Below are positions 55,901-64,000 of a stretch of DNA of 64,000 nucleotides, piece after piece (the first letter of the stretch is position 1; every line of letters begins with the position of its first letter). Location of the stretch: assembly GCA_023150615.1 (NCBI GenBank), contig JAKLKO010000011.1, forward strand, positions 62,001-126,000, read 5' to 3'. The position numbers and the translations under genes are program-made. Under the pieces are notes generated by a model. That model did no database searches and was not told the DNA's origin. It saw nothing but the letters and a program-made list of their open reading frames with translations. Origin of the DNA: Phycisphaerae bacterium (GTDB lineage: Bacteria > Planctomycetota > Phycisphaerae > UBA1845 > UTPLA1).

Positions 55901-56773
55901 TCAGCCGCAGGGGCGGCCCGCGCGTGCGATCGCGTGACAGGCATCGACGACGTGCCGCATCTCGCGGACATCGTGGACGCGGACGATCTGCACGCCGGCG
56001 AGGGCACACGCCGCAACGGTCGCGGCCGTGGGCATGAGGCGCGCCGCCGGGTCATCGGTTCCGTCGCCCGGGCTGAGGAACCGCTTCCGCGACGTGCCGA
56101 TGAACACGGGTCGGCCGAGCGCGTGCAGTTCCGCGACGCGGGCGAGCAGCTCCCAGTTGTGCGCGGCAGTCTTTCCGAAGCCGATGCCGGGATCGACGAT
56201 GATGCGCTCGCGCGCTATACCCGCCGCGACAGCGGCCTCGATTCGCCGTGCAAGGAACGCGCGTATTTCGCCGACCACATCGCCATAGCGCGGGTCGGCC
56301 TGCATGGTCTTCGGCGTTCCGAGCATGTGCATGAGCACGATGGGCACGCTGCGCCGTGCGACGAGTTCCGCCAGGGTCGGGTCGTCTTGAAGTGCCGAGA
56401 CATCGTTGACCAGGTCGGCGCCGGCATCGAGCGCGGCCCCTGCGACTGACGCAAGACGCGTGTCGATCGAGACCGGCCGCGTGATTCCAGCGCGACGGAT
56501 GGCTTCGATGATCGGGACGACGCGGCCGATCTGCTCGTCGGCGGGCACGGCGTCGCTGCCGGGTCGCGTGGATTCGCCGCCGACATCGATCAGGTCCGCG
56601 CCGTCGGCGGCCATGCGACGGGCGTGGGCGACGGCGGCTGGCGGCTCGACGTAGCGGCCGCCGTCGCTGAAGCTGTCGGGCGTGACGTTGAGGATTCCGC
56701 ACACGAGCGTACGGCCGCCGAACACGAGCGGTCCGTGCGGCGTTTCGATCTGTCCGCGGAAGGGCGTGGGCAC
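55901..56773 (-). CDS. folP: Dihydropteroate synthase
   Basis: 290 residues. It joins p-aminobenzoate and dihydropterin pyrophosphate in folate synthesis. The motifs are complete: GILNVTPDSFSDGGRY, DVGGESTRPGSD, VSIDT, VNDVSAL, IVDPGIGFGKT, and PVFIGTSRKRFLS. The GTG at 56773 is the start, because it matches family N-termini and lies just after a -10 box (TATAGT on the minus strand). Insertions are minor. Confidence 0.97.
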   Translation of the reverse strand: MPTPFRGQIETPHGPLVFGGRTLVCGILNVTPDSFSDGGRYVEPPAAVAHARRMAADGADLIDVGGESTRPGSDAVPADEQIGRVVPIIEAIRRAGITRPVSIDTRLASVAGAALDAGADLVNDVSALQDDPTLAELVARRSVPIVLMHMLGTPKTMQADPRYGDVVGEIRAFLARRIEAAVAAGIARERIIVDPGIGFGKTAAHNWELLARVAELHALGRPVFIGTSRKRFLSPGDGTDDPAARLMPTAATVAACALAGVQIVRVHDVREMRHVVDACHAIARAGRPCG

Positions 56774-56781
56774 GTCGCGCG

Positions 56782-56810
56782 ACTATAGGCGCGGGCGCGG
56801 TTCCGGTAAA
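56782..56810 (-). promoter_or_regulatory. Promoter for folP, leaderless transcript likely
   Basis: On the minus strand TTTACC (complement of 56805-56810) and TATAGT (complement of 56782-56787) are 17 bases apart. The GTG start of folP lies only 8 bases downstream, so the transcript may begin at or near the start codon. No Shine-Dalgarno is visible. Confidence 0.55.
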
Positions 56811-59335
56811 TGATCCATCGAATGCGAGCGAGCACCGCGCTGCGCAAGACCCGGTCGATCGCGTCGTTGCCGTGGGTGGCGATGGCGTTCGCTGCGGCGC
56901 TGGCCGTCATTGCAGGATGGCCGACGCGCTTCGGGGCGTTTCTGGCCGGCGATGATCGCAACCTGGTGCTCGATCACGTCCTGATCAACCATCCGACGTG
57001 GGCGCACGCGTGGAGACTGCTCTGGATGGTGCACGGCGATCTGTATCAGCCTGTCCCGATGCTGTCGCTGCAGTTGAACTTCGCGCTGTTCGGCGCAGAG
57101 GCGTACGGTTATCACCTGACGAACATCGCGCTGCACGCGGTGAACGCCGGGCTGGCTACGGCGCTGGCCTTTGCGCTTTCGCGCGACCGGCGCGCGGCGG
57201 CCATCGCGGGGATGCTGTTCGCGTGTCACCCGCTGGCGATCGAGCCGGTGGCGTGGGTCACGGGGCGGATGATCCTGTTCGCGGCGTTGTTCGGCCTGAC
57301 GACGTTGAATGTCTTCGCATACCGCGGCCCGCAGGCGACGCCGCGATTCGCGATCGCGGCGGTGGTGTGCTGGCTTTTGGCGCTCGTGTCGAAGGTCCTG
57401 CCGAGCGTGCCGCTCGCCGCCGCGTGGGTCGATGCAAGCGTGCACGGGCGCGAGCCGGGTCCGTGGGGGCGGTCGCGGCGATGGTGGGCCGCGTTTGGCG
57501 CGATGCTGGCGCTGACCGCGGTGTTCACGCTCTGGGCGATCCGCACGACGAAGGAAACGAAGGTCATCGACATCATCAACGCTGAGATTCGCACGCCCGC
57601 GGCGGTGCGCATGGTCCTCGCGGCCCGTTATTACATCGAGGGTTATATCCGGCCGACGCGGTTGTGCGCGTGGTCGCCGCCGCCGCGCGATCTGCCCGCG
57701 GCGTCGGCGCCGGTGGCGATCGCCGTGGTCGAACTGGCCGCGCTCACCTGCGTCGCGTTGGTACTGCGACGGCGCTGCCGCCCGGCGTGGGACGGACTGC
57801 TGTTGTTCGCGATCCTGCTCGCGCCGTTCATCGCGGCGGTCAAGGCGCGGAACTTCCTGACGGCCGATCGCTACATGTACCTGCCGATGGTCGGGTTGAA
57901 TGTGGCGGTCGGTGCGATGCTGGTGGCGGCAGCGGACGGGCTGTCGGCACGGTTCGGCCGGCGCGCGTTGCGGCTTGCGCCGATCGGTGCGGCGGTCATG
58001 CTGGCGATCCCGCTGTTGATGCAGGGTCGCGTGCTGGCCGACGCATGGCGCGACAACGTGGCGCAGGCGCGTCGCGTCGTGTCGCTGCACCGGGACGACG
58101 TTCGCGCGTGGGTCGAGCTGGCAAAGGCGCAGTTGTTCGAAGGTCGGCCGCGCGAGGCGCTCGAGACCGTGCGGACCGCGCGGACACGCTGGCCGGACGA
58201 ACCGAGCCTGGCGTCGGAGGCGGGCGAGGCGCAGTGGCAACTGGGGGCGTGGACGGAAGCGGTGCGGGAGCTTTCCGCGGCGGCGGGGCGGCTGCCGATC
58301 AGTCATCGTTGTCATTACTACCTCGGCCTGGCGCTGGAGAAGCTGGACCGGTCGCGGGAGGCGCGGGCGAAGTTCGCGGCGATCCTTGCGGACCGCGAGA
58401 ACATGGTCCCCGCGGCGACGGCGCTGGCGCGGAACTTCCGCGACGCGGGTGAGCTCGAGGAATCGCTTCGCTGGTACGACCATGCGGTCCGCATGAACCC
58501 GCACCATCGCAACGCGCTGTTCGAGTCGGCGGAGCTGCGGATGCGGTTGGGCCGCTACGAGGAGGCGAGCGCGGCGCTGCAACGCATCCTGTCGTTCTTG
58601 CCGGAAGATCAGCCGGCGCGGTTGAACCTCGGCGTCTGCCTGCTGCGCCTCGGCGATCCGCAGGGGGCGCTGCGAGCCTACGACGAACTGCTCGCGTCGG
58701 GCGCGACGTCGCCGGTCGTGCGAGTCAATCGCGCCGAGGTTCTCGCGGCGCTGGGCCGCGCCCGCGACGCGGAGGCGGAGTACCGGCGGGCGATGGGCGA
58801 TGATCCGCGGATGCGCGCAGCGCTGGTCGGGCTGAGTCTGTTGCTGCAATCGCAGCATCGGTACGCCGACATGGCCGCGGCGTGGCAGGAGTTCGGCCCG
58901 CGCACGGTGGGTGCGGAGGAGTCCGGGGCGTGGGTGGACTGGAGCCGGCGATTGGAGGGCCGGGCGATTTTCGCTGCGCCGGCGAGCCGGCCGTCGGCCG
59001 CACCGGCCGGGGCGGCCCGATACCTGCGCTCGTTTGCTGGCGCGTGGGCGCTGCGAACACCGGACGAGCTTCGCGGACTGACGGAGTTGCCCGGGGCGAC
59101 GAACGACGCCGATCGCGATGCGCTGCGGGCCGTCATCGCGGCGCTGACGGACTTGGGCGTTTCCGCGCCGCAGGACCCGCCGCTGCTCTACAAGACGGCG
59201 GCGGCGCTGGGATTGCGGGGCGACTTCGAGCTGGCGCGACGCTTCGCAGAGCGGCTGCGCGCGGTCGACGATCCGGGCTGGGCAGGGACGGCGGCGGAGC
59301 TGAAACGTTGGATCGCGGAGCGCGGCGGCGGTTGA
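56810..59335 (+). CDS. TMTC-like membrane protein with TPR domain
   Basis: 841 residues. The N-terminal half (about residues 20-400) has roughly ten membrane helices with FLAGDDRNLVLDH, YQPVPMLSLQLNFALFG, YHLTNIALHAVNAGLA, FACHPLAIEPVAWVTGR and LTADRYMYLPMVG. These match TMTC-type (DUF1736) proteins, related to O-mannosyltransferases of the GT-C fold. The C-terminal half (about 410-730) contains several TPR units, for example ELAKAQLFEGRPREALETV and AEYRRAMGDDPRM. Eukaryotic TMTCs O-mannosylate Ser/Thr; this activity here is an inference. Start choice between 56810 and 56822 is open. Confidence 0.75.
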   Translation: MIHRMRASTALRKTRSIASLPWVAMAFAAALAVIAGWPTRFGAFLAGDDRNLVLDHVLINHPTWAHAWRLLWMVHGDLYQPVPMLSLQLNFALFGAEAYGYHLTNIALHAVNAGLATALAFALSRDRRAAAIAGMLFACHPLAIEPVAWVTGRMILFAALFGLTTLNVFAYRGPQATPRFAIAAVVCWLLALVSKVLPSVPLAAAWVDASVHGREPGPWGRSRRWWAAFGAMLALTAVFTLWAIRTTKETKVIDIINAEIRTPAAVRMVLAARYYIEGYIRPTRLCAWSPPPRDLPAASAPVAIAVVELAALTCVALVLRRRCRPAWDGLLLFAILLAPFIAAVKARNFLTADRYMYLPMVGLNVAVGAMLVAAADGLSARFGRRALRLAPIGAAVMLAIPLLMQGRVLADAWRDNVAQARRVVSLHRDDVRAWVELAKAQLFEGRPREALETVRTARTRWPDEPSLASEAGEAQWQLGAWTEAVRELSAAAGRLPISHRCHYYLGLALEKLDRSREARAKFAAILADRENMVPAATALARNFRDAGELEESLRWYDHAVRMNPHHRNALFESAELRMRLGRYEEASAALQRILSFLPEDQPARLNLGVCLLRLGDPQGALRAYDELLASGATSPVVRVNRAEVLAALGRARDAEAEYRRAMGDDPRMRAALVGLSLLLQSQHRYADMAAAWQEFGPRTVGAEESGAWVDWSRRLEGRAIFAAPASRPSAAPAGAARYLRSFAGAWALRTPDELRGLTELPGATNDADRDALRAVIAALTDLGVSAPQDPPLLYKTAAALGLRGDFELARRFAERLRAVDDPGWAGTAAELKRWIAERGGG

Positions 59336-59354: not shown

Positions 59355-60578
59355 TCACTGCCCGCGGATGAGGGCGGCATCGAGCAGGTCGACGCGGTCG
59401 TCGATGTCGCCGTGCGCGGCGTACTCGATCCGGATCGTAAGCATGTTCGCGCCGCGGACATCGACATCGATGGGCTGCGGTGGTTCGCCGCGCCGGACAT
59501 GATCAATGCGGGCCACCTCGCGGTCGTCGGCGAGGATGCGGACGTCCGCATCGGCCCAGTCGCCGGCGGAGTCGTCGATGGCGACGGCGGCGCGGAATCG
59601 ATCGAAGTCGCCCTGAAGCGCGTAGGTGACGCGCGCGGCGGAGTGCAGCGCGACGCCGCGTGCGTACTCGCGGCCGTGCGCGCGGAGTGGAAGGTCGTTC
59701 GGCCCGCGGTCGCGCCCGAGCGGCCAGCGCGGTCCGAACAGCGGTCGCGAGTCGTGGGAGACGGGCGGGAGATCGCTGAGCCAGATGCGCCGGCCGGTGT
59801 TCCATTCCGCGCGGGCGATCGCGTCGATGGGGAGCTGCACGCGCTGCCCGGCGAGGACGCGGGCCTCGATTGAGGTTTCGCTCCAGCGCAGCTCGTTCGC
59901 GATGATGCGCGAACCACCGACCAGATCGATGCGGACGAACTTGCCCGGCGGCGTGGCGTCCTCGGCGGCCGCCAGCTCGATCCGCCGGATGCGTTCCCAC
60001 GGGATCGTGCGCGACTCGTCGTTGATTTGGACGGCGATGTCGGTTCGTGTCGCAACCGTGATCAGTCCGCGGAGCACGTCTCCGTTGGCCAGTTCGATGA
60101 CGTCGTGTTCTTCCTCGGCCGGGAGCGGCGCCTGCGGCGCGTCGGCGCGGGTGATCCGCGTGAGGCGATCGAGCGGGATTCGGAGCGCCGACAGCGCTGG
60201 ATGATGGGCCAGCAGCGATTCGCCCTCGTGGCCGACGAACTCCGCACGGAGGCGCTCGCCGCTGCGAAATTCGAGCAGCCACGGTGCATCCGATGCATCC
60301 TGCGGCTTCCGCGGCGCGATCCGGGTCAGGGTGTCCAGCTCGTCCGGCTCGATTTCGATCGTCCGCGTCGTTTCACCCGGCGGAAGTTGCAGCACGACGC
60401 CATGGTCGTGCGATGCGCGGAGGACGATGCCGGTCAATCGACGACCGTCGATCGCGCGCGCGTCGAATTGGGCCGGCGTGCTCGACTCCGCGAGGGCGAC
60501 GGTCGTCGCGATGCACGCCAGCGCCCCGGCCGCGCGGGCGGCGGCGGTTGCAACCGGCATGGATTGGCGCGTGCTCAT
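59355..60578 (-). CDS. Exported protein with NPCBM domain
   Basis: 407 residues. Signal peptide (ALACIATTVALAESSTPAQF). Residues 40-240 contain two similar strand-rich segments with DARAIDGRRLTGIVL and LANGDVLRGLITVATRTDIAVQINDES, each an RNA-chaperone-like small beta-barrel pattern. The C-terminal 140 residues (PLRAHGREYARGVALHSAARVTYALQGDFDRF) form an NPCBM/NEW2 carbohydrate-binding-like domain. Probably periplasmic or surface-bound glycan-binding. The stop of the upstream gene overlaps its ATG (ATGA). Confidence 0.8.
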   Translation of the reverse strand: MSTRQSMPVATAAARAAGALACIATTVALAESSTPAQFDARAIDGRRLTGIVLRASHDHGVVLQLPPGETTRTIEIEPDELDTLTRIAPRKPQDASDAPWLLEFRSGERLRAEFVGHEGESLLAHHPALSALRIPLDRLTRITRADAPQAPLPAEEEHDVIELANGDVLRGLITVATRTDIAVQINDESRTIPWERIRRIELAAAEDATPPGKFVRIDLVGGSRIIANELRWSETSIEARVLAGQRVQLPIDAIARAEWNTGRRIWLSDLPPVSHDSRPLFGPRWPLGRDRGPNDLPLRAHGREYARGVALHSAARVTYALQGDFDRFRAAVAIDDSAGDWADADVRILADDREVARIDHVRRGEPPQPIDVDVRGANMLTIRIEYAAHGDIDDRVDLLDAALIRGQ

Positions 60579-61678
60579 CGTTGAAAGATCGGCATCGAGC
60601 GATTCGGCATCTGAAGAATGATCAGGGCCATCGCCGTTCCGTAGTCCTGACCCGCCTGTCCACGCCAGGAGCCGTCGGCGCCTTGCTTGGCGACGAGTTC
60701 ATCGCGGATGGCGGGCCACCATTTCTGCCAGTGCGGTCCGCCGGCGATGAACGTGGCCTGCACGGCGTAGTAGTGGCCGTAGAAATAGTGCGTTTGCTCC
60801 TGCGTCAGCCCGGGTCGGAACCGGTGGAGGTAGGCCAGTCCGCGCTCGATCTCGCGGCCTTCGTAGACGCCGGAATAGTACAGCGCCGCGACGCCCGCGG
60901 CGGATCGCGCGAACATCGACCCGGCCGAGTCGAGCATGTAGCGAAAGCCTCCGTCCGGGTTCTGACTCTTGCGGACGTAGCGGATGGCGCGGTCGATCGT
61001 CGACTTGGGCACGTCGAGTCCGGCGTTCCGCGCAGCCCGCAGCGCCATGACCTGGCAGATCGTCACGGACAGATCGGCGTCGGCCTTGACGGGGTGATAA
61101 CGCCAGCCACCCTGTTCGTTTTGCGTGCGGACGATGAGCAGGACGGCCTTGCGGAGTTTCTCCCGAAGATCGGGATGGGGGGACATGCCGTACATCTCGG
61201 CGAGAAACAGCGTGGCGAAGCCGTGGCCGTACATTGGGCCGTACGACGTTTCGGCCGCGATCAGGCCGGACTGCTCGGCAGTCGAGTCGAGGATGAACTG
61301 TAGCGCGCGTTCGACGTTTCGCGCATAACGGCCGCGGCCGGGGACGCTGCCGTCGCCGACAAAGGCCATTCCGGCGAGGGCGGTGATGCCGACGTGGCGG
61401 CCGTACTGCGAGCTTCCGCCGAAGGAGCCGTCTTCGGCCTGCTGCGAAGCGAGCCATTCGAGGCCGCGGGCGATGGCGCTGCGCGCTGCGGGCGTAAGTT
61501 CGTCATCGCCGCTGTCGGGCGCGGGTTGCGTGGTCGGTGCGGCCGGTGCGGACGCGGGCGGACCGCCGGATCGGTCGGAGCCGACGCGTCGCAGGAACTG
61601 CGCGCGGCAGACCGCGGCGTTGCCGAGGAGGACGGCGGCGAGTGCGGCGACGGTCGTAATGGCGGACGTCCGCGTCAT
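60575..61678 (-). CDS. Exported terpene-cyclase/prenyltransferase-repeat protein
   Basis: 367 residues. Signal peptide up to about 27, then a PTTQPAPDSGDDE linker. The rest is an (alpha/alpha) toroid with repeated SQQAEDGSFGG, EQGGWRYHP, QNPDGGFRYM and QGADGSWRGQ motifs (QW-like repeats). Squalene-hopene cyclases have this fold, but the DxDD catalytic motif is absent and the protein is exported. It may be a structural, peptide- or glycan-binding member. It overlaps both neighbouring genes by 4 bases. Confidence 0.8.
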   Translation of the reverse strand: MTRTSAITTVAALAAVLLGNAAVCRAQFLRRVGSDRSGGPPASAPAAPTTQPAPDSGDDELTPAARSAIARGLEWLASQQAEDGSFGGSSQYGRHVGITALAGMAFVGDGSVPGRGRYARNVERALQFILDSTAEQSGLIAAETSYGPMYGHGFATLFLAEMYGMSPHPDLREKLRKAVLLIVRTQNEQGGWRYHPVKADADLSVTICQVMALRAARNAGLDVPKSTIDRAIRYVRKSQNPDGGFRYMLDSAGSMFARSAAGVAALYYSGVYEGREIERGLAYLHRFRPGLTQEQTHYFYGHYYAVQATFIAGGPHWQKWWPAIRDELVAKQGADGSWRGQAGQDYGTAMALIILQMPNRSMPIFQR

Positions 61679-62373
61679 GGTGCCGGTGGCTCCTCGGCGA
61701 TCGATCGGTAGTAGTCTTCGATGTAGTCGCGGTAGCGCATGGGAAACTCCTCGTCGAGGCCCTGGAGGATTTCCTCTCGGTCGCGCTGCGGGAGCGCGCC
61801 CCAGCGCCGTTGGAGGTCGGCGGCGTCGTGAAGTCCGCGGCGGTCCTTCGCGCCAGGGCCTTCGTTGGCGGCGGTCCGCGCGGGCTGCGCCTTGCCGGCG
61901 CGACCCGCCTCACGACCGTCGGCCGGCCGCGATTGCGGGCGTGCCGAGGTGCGGCCTTGGCGAGCTGCGCCGGCCTGCTGCTGCTGCGACGGGGATTCGT
62001 TGGATTTCGCGAGTTCGATGAGTTCGTCGATGGCGGCGAGCGAGCGGCGGAGCGCATCGTGCGTCTCGACGCCGTTGTCGGCCTCGTCGAGCAGGCGACG
62101 CTGCGCCTCGGCCATCGCGGCGAGCAGCTTCTCGTGGACGAGTACGTCGCTCGATCGGCCTTCGAGCAATCGCCGCGTGAAGTCGTCGGTTGGGCGCGTC
62201 GTGGCCGGTTTGGCGATTCCGCCCGAAATGCGACCGGTCCCGGCGGGCTGCGAGGCGGATGGATCGTGTCGCAACGTGTGCGGCAGTTGCGACACCGTTT
62301 GCGACAGCGCGGCCGAGGCCACGCACACCGACAGCAGGGCGACCCACCGCAGGCTGGCATCAGCGCGTCGCAT
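61675..62373 (-). CDS. Exported protein of unknown function
   Basis: 232 residues from ATG 62373, with GGGGAGG upstream. Signal peptide (RWVALLSVCVASAALSQTVS). A TTRP linker, a helix pair around LLAAMAEAQRRLLDEADNGVE, and a Gln/Ala/Arg-rich low-complexity middle (SQQQQAGAARQGRTSARPQ). The C-terminus DREEILQGLDEEFPMRYRDYIEDYYR is acidic and aromatic, and more conserved-looking. No family recognised. Overlaps the next upstream gene by 14 bases. Confidence 0.65.
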   Translation of the reverse strand: MRRADASLRWVALLSVCVASAALSQTVSQLPHTLRHDPSASQPAGTGRISGGIAKPATTRPTDDFTRRLLEGRSSDVLVHEKLLAAMAEAQRRLLDEADNGVETHDALRRSLAAIDELIELAKSNESPSQQQQAGAARQGRTSARPQSRPADGREAGRAGKAQPARTAANEGPGAKDRRGLHDAADLQRRWGALPQRDREEILQGLDEEFPMRYRDYIEDYYRSIAEEPPAP

Positions 62374-64000
62374 CGGGAGCCTCCCCCGCGTCGCGACGGG
62401 CGTTTGAGATGAGCCGCTCGGCCAGCTCGCGGATGTCGCGCTGGCGGTCGCCGAGTTGAGTGATCGTCGATGGATCGTCGGCGATTTGCAGTTCTTCGGT
62501 AGACGGCGCGGCATTCGCGGCGTCGTCGTTCAGTTCGGCCTGCATCGCGCGAAGCACAAGCAGCTCGGCCAGCGGTGGAACGGGTCGGTCGGGCGTCGGC
62601 TGGCCCGGACCACCGGGAGGTCCGCCGGCGGCCTGGAACTGCTCCTTGGGCGGCTGCTCGATGGCGAGCGCGCCGATCAATCGGTCGAGTTCGCGCACGG
62701 CGCGGCGCTGCCTGGCGGCGGCGGCGGTGAGGTCTTGCGCTTCGAGCAGATCCGCCGCGCTTCGCATGTGCTGCTCGATCTTCTGGCAGACGTACTGATA
62801 GACGACGGCGGATTGGAGTCGTTCGTCCAGGGCCGCGATGCCGTCGGCCAGCGCAGTCTGGCTCTTTCGCATGGTGGGGAGCTTGGCGCGGTCGGTGCGC
62901 GACAGGCGTTGTGAATCGCCGCGGCGTTTCTCCAGTTCGGCGACCGAGTCAAGCAAGCGCGACTGCGCTGCGCGGATCTTCGTCAGCGCCTCCCGAATCC
63001 GCGCCATGGCCTGCTCGGCCTGTTCGCGCTCGGCGCGGGCTTCGAGCTGCTCCAGCGTCCGGCGCGCCGACTGAAGTGCGGCGAGCGCGGCTTCCTGCGC
63101 GGCGTCGGCGGGCGCCATCCGGACGGCCGACAGGTTCGTGGCGGCGGCCGCCATGTGCTCGGCGGCAGCGCGAAGCTGGTTTCGCGCCGCCTCGACGCCG
63201 GGCAGGTCGGCGGGGGCGGCGCGGATGCTCTGTCGGGTCGTGGTTCGCAGGCTGAGTTGCCGTTCAGCGAGTCGCCGCGCGAGGTCGCGTTGTTCAGTCT
63301 GGTCCTGCGCCGAGCGCGTGTCGGTACGGAGTCGCTGCTGCGCGGCGATGATGCGGTCGAGCCGCGCGAAGATGTCGCGGAGCTGCTTCGACAGGGCCTC
63401 CAGCCGCCGCTCGGACGGACGCCGCAGGGCGTCGAGCATCGCGCGGAGCGCGGCCTCGGAAGCGAGCTGCGCGTCCTGCGCGCGGTTGAGCCGGTTCGCA
63501 TCGACGTGGCGCGCCGCGTCGGCGAGTTTCTCGATGAGGCCGAGCGCTTCGGCGGATCGAATCGCGCGGCGGATTGACTCGGCCGACGCGGCGTCGCGCG
63601 ACTCGAGCGCGGCGGCCAGGTCTCGCAGCCGCGTGAGCACGGCGTCGGCGTCCTGTGACAGTCGCTGCTGGTCGGTTGCGACCGAGCGGAGCCGCTGGCG
63701 CTGCGGGTCGGACAACTGCTCGACGTCCAGTCCGGCCAGTTGTCGCGCGAGCGCGGCGGCGCGTCGCGTGAGGACTTCCTGCCGGTCGAGCAGGTCCTGT
63801 CCCTTGCGCGCGGCGTCGTGCAGATCGTTCCATTGATCCACGACGGCGACGAGGCGGCGGAGCTGCTCGACCGTTTCGAGCTGCTGCGCGGCGGCATCGG
63901 CAAGGGCGTCGGTGCGCGCGGGGGCGTTGGGACGTTCCGCCGCGCGGTCGAGCGCGGCGGCGCTGTCGTTCATCGGCCCTTCGGTCGTCGCGCCCAGCCC
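62360..64000 (-). CDS. Long coiled-coil protein, 5' end outside window
   Basis: At least 546 residues; the frame is open to the window edge, so the true start is beyond 64000 (an ATG at 63973 may be internal). It is dominated by Ala/Arg/Gln/Leu heptads from residue 20 to 450, then a Pro/Gly linker and an acidic helix region near the C-terminus. It may be the soluble part of a larger membrane protein of the DUF4175 type, which often accompany such operons in planctomycetes. It is the first visible gene of the minus-strand operon with the three genes that follow. Confidence 0.65.
   Translation of the reverse strand, partial: GLGATTEGPMNDSAAALDRAAERPNAPARTDALADAAAQQLETVEQLRRLVAVVDQWNDLHDAARKGQDLLDRQEVLTRRAAALARQLAGLDVEQLSDPQRQRLRSVATDQQRLSQDADAVLTRLRDLAAALESRDAASAESIRRAIRSAEALGLIEKLADAARHVDANRLNRAQDAQLASEAALRAMLDALRRPSERRLEALSKQLRDIFARLDRIIAAQQRLRTDTRSAQDQTEQRDLARRLAERQLSLRTTTRQSIRAAPADLPGVEAARNQLRAAAEHMAAAATNLSAVRMAPADAAQEAALAALQSARRTLEQLEARAEREQAEQAMARIREALTKIRAAQSRLLDSVAELEKRRGDSQRLSRTDRAKLPTMRKSQTALADGIAALDERLQSAVVYQYVCQKIEQHMRSAADLLEAQDLTAAAARQRRAVRELDRLIGALAIEQPPKEQFQAAGGPPGGPGQPTPDRPVPPLAELLVLRAMQAELNDDAANAAPSTEELQIADDPSTITQLGDRQRDIRELAERLISNARRDAGEAPDATR

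Follow-up and report, generated by a model that had tools for sequence, protein, structure and literature searches.

An eight-gene MoxR–DUF58–VWA operon encoding an exported toroid of cyclase fold in Planctomycetota

Known MoxR operons and the planctomycete locus

MoxR ATPases are believed to assist particular complexes in maturing or becoming active (PMC3893208), and a core of MoxR, DUF58 and VWA proteins is common to the Bat operons of Bacteroides and spirochaetes, to which a cmdA-D type operon has been linked (PMC5700661). In Rhizobium leguminosarum, RL3499 is such a MoxR, and loss of the operon to which it belongs, cmdA-D (RL3499-RL3502), alters cell morphology and the integrity of the membrane (PMC3893208, PMC5700661). 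MoxR has been proposed to load metal into the VWA metal site (PMC3557215). Here we describe an operon with the same core at the right end of a window of 64,000 nucleotides, i.e., the whole stretch of DNA analysed (Phycisphaerae bacterium, contig JAKLKO010000011.1, positions 62,001 to 126,000). Its distal genes encode a long coiled-coil protein (COIL), a small exported protein (SMALL), an exported alpha/alpha toroid with the fold of squalene-hopene cyclases (TOR) and a protein with an NPCBM domain.

The core MoxR–DUF58–BatA/VWA is thus of a known operon kind (Bat/cmd). The locus resembles cmdA-D, which to our knowledge has no toroid, no protein with the SMALL motif and no NPCBM protein, and it shares MoxR, DUF58 and BatA-type VWA membrane proteins with the Bat operons of Bacteroides, Leptospira and Borrelia. 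The Bat operons add BatD, TPR and SH3 parts (PMC5700661), whereas the DUF4175-like COIL, SMALL, TOR and NPCBM are found here instead, and no Pfam match to BatD, TPR or SH3 partners was obtained in the proteins of the window operon. The initial annotation had proposed an undescribed envelope or surface-glycan system. The exported half with TOR, SMALL and NPCBM is undescribed as far as the open-access literature was searched, which is weak evidence of novelty because of that restriction, but the core is known and envelope phenotypes have been published for it (PMC3893208, PMC5700661). The envelope reading is supported, and the NPCBM/CBM51 domain is the single feature that suggests a surface glycan. 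No open-access paper was found on MoxR together with DUF58 or with von Willebrand proteins in planctomycetes, or on DUF4159, and the accessible text of PMC7203096 mentions no MoxR. Planctomycetes have many essential genes of unknown function, and the main text of the essential-gene paper on Planctopirus limnophila names no MoxR, squalene or von Willebrand gene (PMC10632474).

The window is part of a 135,807-base contig, in which the remaining genes of the operon could be read to the right of the window edge (Table 1). The four genes at the window end had been annotated as overlapping, with MoxR or VWA genes expected beyond the edge. The open reading frames (ORFs) bear this out, as NPCBM/TOR, TOR/SMALL and SMALL/COIL overlap by exactly 4, 4 and 14 bases, and VWA2, BatA/VWA, DUF58 and MoxR follow. 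The four window genes form the distal half of an operon with eight genes, MoxR–DUF58–BatA–VWA2–COIL–SMALL–TOR–NPCBM, and this membership is well supported. The gaps from COIL through VWA2, BatA and DUF58 to MoxR measure 4, -4, 12 and 40 bases, and 151 bases separate MoxR from an fpg gene, which lies upstream and is divergently oriented.

Table 1. Positions of the operon genes and of the protease genes of the second operon (aa, amino acids; L002 position = window position minus 57000)
Feature	Product	Position	Strand	Basis
NPCBM	NPCBM protein, 407 aa	59355-60578	minus	ORF, Pfam NPCBM
TOR	exported single alpha/alpha toroid, squalene-hopene-cyclase fold, 367 aa	60575-61678	minus	ORF, Pfam, model
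SMALL	exported protein, 232 aa, ATG at 62373	61675-62373	minus	ORF
COIL	coiled-coil protein, DUF4175-related, 1172 aa	62360-65878 (in window 62360-64000; L002:5360-8878)	minus	ORF
VWA2	VWA membrane protein, 790 aa	L002:8883-11255, beyond window	minus	ORF, Pfam
BatA/VWA	BatA/VWA protein, 722 aa	L002:11252-13420, beyond window	minus	ORF, Pfam
DUF58	DUF58 protein, 304 aa	L002:13433-14347, beyond window	minus	ORF, Pfam
MoxR	MoxR ATPase	L002:14388-15443, beyond window	minus	ORF, Pfam AAA_3
Proteases	run of three genes for trypsin-like PDZ (HtrA-type) proteases that immediately follows the second MoxR operon	L073:15395-19223		

The proximal proteins are recognized above the Pfam cut-offs: MoxR by AAA_3 (212 bits), DUF58 at 170.5 bits and BatA/VWA by its BatA domain (60.3 bits; two_anch 70.1 bits), while VWA_2 exceeds its cut-off in three operon proteins. 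Walker-type motifs are present in 19/19 MoxR sequences, and the D-x-S-x-S motif occurs in DUF58 (19/19), VWA2 (20/20) and BatA (19/20). By hydropathy, BatA, VWA2 and COIL have membrane segments, SMALL, TOR and NPCBM have a single N-terminal segment each, and no membrane segment was detected in MoxR or DUF58. The VWA domains are probably periplasmic, because positive charges lie between the two N-terminal segments. An NCBIfam scan of the four window proteins gave nothing above the cut-offs.

The exported toroid and its partners

TOR exceeds the Pfam cut-offs of SQHop_cyclase_C, SQHop_cyclase_N and Prenyltrans, and its AlphaFold model is a confident single toroid of twelve helices (predicted local distance difference test, pLDDT, 94.5; predicted template modelling score 0.93). 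Squalene-hopene cyclases (SHCs) are the closest solved structures (profile E 2.2e-14, Foldseek E 7.5e-8), with Z 27.9, root-mean-square deviation (rmsd) 2.6 and 280 aligned in the comparison with an SHC structure. TOR shares with the type II terpene cyclases the alpha/alpha toroid with QW-type repeats, and its alignment spans SHC residues 8 to 627, which fits the DxDD-bearing domain, a domain built from both chain ends. Unlike these cyclases, it has one toroid rather than two, is exported and lacks DxDD, the position of which is probably taken by a conserved His. Sugar epimerases, GH76, MmpH and AprG also appear in the fold lists at Z 22-25; they share the fold class, not a function, and were not used to name a reaction.

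The toroid had been annotated as lacking DxDD, and the motif is indeed absent from TOR and from all 43 rows of the toroid alignment A2, which comprises the window toroid together with those from 42 of the 80 named loci introduced below (L143, L147 and L163 were left out). Membership of the type II terpene cyclases, whose fold TOR has, was rejected for this reason. An alpha-2-macroglobulin thioester (TED) identity was also rejected, since the CxEQ thioester motif (C[GLV]EQ) occurs in 0/43 rows; Pfam TED_complement stayed below its cut-off.

Residue conservation was assessed in a set of 88 toroids, with every kind represented. His152 is present in 87 of them, the sole exception being a Gln in one of the five PD40-fused toroids described below, and position 202 is acidic throughout (Asp 66, Glu 22). 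Ser204, Tyr194, Tyr247 and Tyr304 are each found in 88/88, and Thr348 in 83/88. In the model, His152, Asp202, Ser204, Tyr304 and Thr348 are located at the N-terminal ends of helices 4, 6, 10 and 12 or no more than two turns away from them. By their alternation these would be the inner helices, and their ends, going by the known fold, presumably converge at one mouth of the barrel. The sequence Met-Tyr-Gly-His, of which His152 is the last residue, probably sits at the position of the cyclase DxDD, a placement made by gapless extension of the profile alignment and from the cyclase residue numbering, not from superposed coordinates.

Over 18 operons, the mean pairwise identity is 0.68 for MoxR, 0.66 for TOR, 0.55 for DUF58 and 0.40 for VWA2, followed by BatA (0.32), COIL (0.31), SMALL (0.31) and NPCBM (0.29). 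By this measure TOR is nearly as conserved as MoxR, and the other exported parts far less so. Such a distribution would be expected were TOR the part that does the chemical work.

SMALL, annotated initially as a small exported protein and found as such with its N-terminal segment, consists of a helical part, a low-complexity linker and a C-terminal motif (W191, G192, P195, R199, Y221) conserved in 23/23 rows, the SMALL of the second operon included. A Pfam scan gave nothing above the cut-off for SMALL or for the in-window part of COIL. COIL had been taken for a long exported coiled-coil protein; the coiled-coil gene is present, but its product is probably membrane-anchored and not simply exported, because hydrophobic segments lie at residues 32-50 and 154-172. 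DUF4175 (PF13779) is matched in 11/29 COIL relatives at E 0.01 or better (best 3.1e-11). The annotation of the NPCBM protein agrees with Pfam (95.9 bits, cut-off 23.9), which places the domain at the C-terminus (residues 264-403). In the model (pLDDT 85.2), the NPCBM part superposes on CBM51 2vmg with rmsd 2.2 and TM-score 0.84 by target, and the N-terminal side has a hydrophobic segment and small beta-barrel repeats at residues ~35-260, which we read as four SH3/KOW-like barrels. The protein thus has the Pfam domain and the fold in common with CBM51, joined here to small beta-barrel repeats and not to a glycoside hydrolase. Pfam NPCBM was found in 12/15 relatives. NPCBM is a sugar-binding fold, and carbohydrate binding is predicted for this protein.

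Conservation of the operon and distribution of toroids

Toroid relatives occur in 57/61 close genomes. Toroids with at least 60% identity were taken as markers of the window arrangement (operon A) and are present in 27/61, i.e., 13/17 of the own family (own genome counted) and 14/44 of the order. Four genomes of the own family (G006, G011, G014 and G016, three of genus g7 and one of g12) have other toroids but none at this identity, and operon A may have been lost in them; the completeness of G011 and G016 is only 85-87%. Gene order was followed by tblastn in 22 of the 27 places, and all eight genes stand in order in 18/22 loci. Among the exceptions, L035 ends at a contig edge, L045 is without NPCBM, L047 has only SMALL and TOR, and L050 shows no MoxR or DUF58 within 4.4 kb of upstream sequence.

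A broader sample was formed by 80 named loci, the best 80 of at least 546 toroid matches, whose titles carry a planctomycete name in 77 cases, 'bacterium' only in 2 and Betaproteobacteria in 1. With only the best 80 taken, rarer occurrences outside Planctomycetota would be missed by this sample. Counting only loci with enough flanking DNA, SMALL lies directly upstream of TOR in 72/75, COIL–SMALL–TOR is kept in 58/62, VWA2–COIL–SMALL–TOR in 53/60 and BatA–VWA2–COIL–SMALL–TOR in 51/56, and an NPCBM-type gene is next downstream of TOR in 68/74. As the loci were recovered via TOR, these counts show how often TOR keeps its neighbours and not how frequent the operon is. The constancy of SMALL before TOR and of NPCBM behind it argues that the grouping is not due to chance. 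The order, whose absence from other planctomycetes would have spoken against the initial annotation, is kept among them. Two toroids lie on short contigs, L160 (3.1 kb, labelled Betaproteobacteria) and L156 (6.3 kb, labelled Kuenenia), which may be mis-binned planctomycete DNA or may reflect a wider spread.

A second contig of the same genome carries all eight parts in a rearranged order, TOR2–MoxR–DUF58–BatA–VWA2–COIL-N–COIL-C–SMALL–NPCBM, followed by three protease genes. Its SMALL has the same C-terminal motif as that of operon A, is otherwise different and scores 26.7 bits for TPR_6 (cut-off 26.3), TPR being also a part of Bat operons. The second arrangement is complete in 9/12 loci, whereas the genes of L080 stand in a different order, the contig ends within L083 and TOR alone is present in L084. 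Three distinct protease genes were found in 9/11 second-operon loci and two in L080; L083, cut by the contig end, has none. No HtrA-type protease was found near operon A in 22 operon-A loci, which extend only ~1.5-2.4 kb beyond NPCBM, or in 80 named loci, 58 of which extend >8 kb beyond TOR. The proteases thus belong to the second operon only.

In a survey of 119 genomes across the phylum, own genome included, a toroid at E 1e-40 or better is present in 104. Some of MoxR, DUF58, BatA, VWA2 and COIL accompany 13 of 20 distant toroid loci, and 6 of these 13 have two to three toroid ORFs; tandem toroid genes occur in L176 and L179. From five loci in which VWA2 and TOR are set apart, seven proteins encoded next to them were scanned, and PQQ_2/BamB gave a strong match in five, a weak one in one and none in one. 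Such propeller genes near VWA2 and the toroid are found in L170, L171, L172, L175 and L183, and the propeller of L172 carries TPRs. In a third kind of toroid, with five examples (L067-L071; e.g., L069:6327-11222), the toroid follows a PD40 propeller, transmembrane segments and a proline-rich linker. A tree built from 60 toroids, including 15 of the 43 operon-A rows, unites the PD40-fused toroids in one clade and places those of operon A and of the second operon (operon B) in separate well-supported parts, neither of which is pure, as some distant rows fall among them.

Proposed function and alternatives

We hypothesize, with about as much belief as doubt, that the window genes are the periplasmic half of an ATP-driven chaperone or maturase that serves a toroid active in the envelope and is kept to preserve envelope integrity, and that the operon is a Planctomycetota elaboration of the MoxR–DUF58–VWA (Bat/cmd) type. 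The cytosolic ring ATPase MoxR would act together with DUF58 on BatA and VWA2 in the inner membrane, whose VWA domains would face the periplasm, and the membrane-anchored COIL would carry the conformational work outwards along its long helical arm. SMALL may be the connector, docking via its conserved C-terminal motif. TOR would be the exported working head, in which a polar pocket of His152, Asp202, Ser204 and Tyr304 at one mouth of the barrel may bind or chemically alter an envelope glycan or lipid, both the substrate and the reaction being inferred, and the NPCBM protein could hold the assembly on a glycan as an anchor.

Several observations speak against this proposal. No match to MoxR, DUF58, BatA, VWA2 or COIL was found in 7 of the 20 distant toroid loci within ~9-10 kb on each side (L169 is cut on one side), although NPCBM adjoins TOR in 2 of these 7, and the toroids of L059 and L084, both of one genome, likewise stand without a core-gene match. 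In the one locus with a PD40-fused toroid that was scanned (L069), the neighbours are ExbB/TolQ, ExbD/TolR, an M56 (BlaR1-type) gene and a long protein with TPRs; this toroid seems to be linked with an inner-membrane motor of another kind. The window COIL scores 13.2 bits for DUF4175, below the cut-off of 27.3, and no match to DUF4175 was obtained in the own genome. The polar pocket of TOR could serve only to bind a ligand. Glycan binding may be peripheral, because NPCBM is the least conserved part and was not counted next to TOR in 6/74 named loci, one of which (L132) is an ORF-sorting artefact with the gene present. In Kuenenia, the MoxR gene of an 'aerotolerance operon' is down-regulated by hydrazine, which says nothing for an envelope role (PMC12053348).

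MoxR–DUF58–VWA operons are widespread, and here their probable exported partners are encoded alongside in a fixed order, so that TOR with its defined candidate active site offers a single testable protein for the question of what such MoxR machines work on. The answer would bear on planctomycete envelope biology in general, because toroid relatives occur in 104 of the 119 genomes of the phylum. A bolder and rather speculative extension, which we think more probably wrong than right, is that TOR founds a new class of envelope enzymes in which the cyclase fold is retained, the Asp motif is replaced by a His–Asp/Glu–Ser–Tyr centre, and maturation or power comes from MoxR via the VWA proteins, or from an ExbB/ExbD-type proton motor for the fused form. 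If true, two different energy sources would have the toroid in common as their periplasmic output module in Planctomycetota.

The three protease genes directly behind the second operon in the own genome, and their recurrence in other second-operon loci, would suit a periplasmic protein-quality or maturation machine, in which the VWA proteins, COIL and TOR pass proteins to proteases or fold exports and TOR is a peptide-binding adaptor. We regard this as unlikely, since no such protease was found near operon A in the 22 loci (to ~1.5-2.4 kb beyond NPCBM) or in the 80 named loci (58 of them to >8 kb beyond TOR), NPCBM is a sugar-binding fold, and the pocket residues of TOR are fixed, unlike those of a broad peptide adaptor. 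A Bat-like system guarding against oxidative or other stress, with exported parts that are only structural, would agree with the BatA domain above its cut-off and with the core shared with Bat operons (PMC5700661), as well as with the hydrazine-dependent expression of the Kuenenia MoxR gene (PMC12053348). It is nevertheless quite improbable in our view, as deletion of batABD in Leptospira biflexa left oxidative tolerance and growth unchanged (PMC3557215), and the fixed pocket of TOR would be left unexplained.

The structural closeness of TOR to SHCs invites the idea that it is a genuine type II terpene cyclase which is sent to the periplasm, uses a polyprenyl lipid as substrate and has MoxR for an activase. 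The absence of DxDD from 43 rows, the acid-free Met-Tyr-Gly-His that probably occupies its position and the signal-type N-terminus make this highly improbable, and terpene cyclases are not known to be exported. Least probable of the readings considered here is a MoxR–vWA conflict (counter-invader) system as described by Kaur et al. 2020. Such ternary systems (with VMAP, iSTAND, FtsH or a beta-propeller) have MoxR and VWA proteins in common with the operon; its MoxR exceeds the cut-off of bpMoxR (38.8 vs 27 bits), the MoxR of ternary systems with a beta-propeller, for which planctomycetes are among the reported carriers (PMC7159879), and in several distant loci VWA2 and TOR have PQQ-type propellers between them. 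The operon differs from them by its membrane and exported partners, the presence of DUF58, a fixed gene order with exported distal parts and the far higher score of its MoxR for AAA_3, and no third component (VMAP, iSTAND, FtsH pair or propeller with TPR) was among the matches when the operon was scanned with Pfam. An identity as anti-phage defence was rejected, as PADLOC gave no match at E 0.01 for any of the 8 proteins.

Beyond the operon end, the window encodes on the plus strand a convergent multi-transmembrane protein with C-terminal TPRs by Pfam (56810-59335) and, on the minus strand, a pterin-binding enzyme of the dihydropteroate synthase family (55901-56773, Pfam 280 bits).

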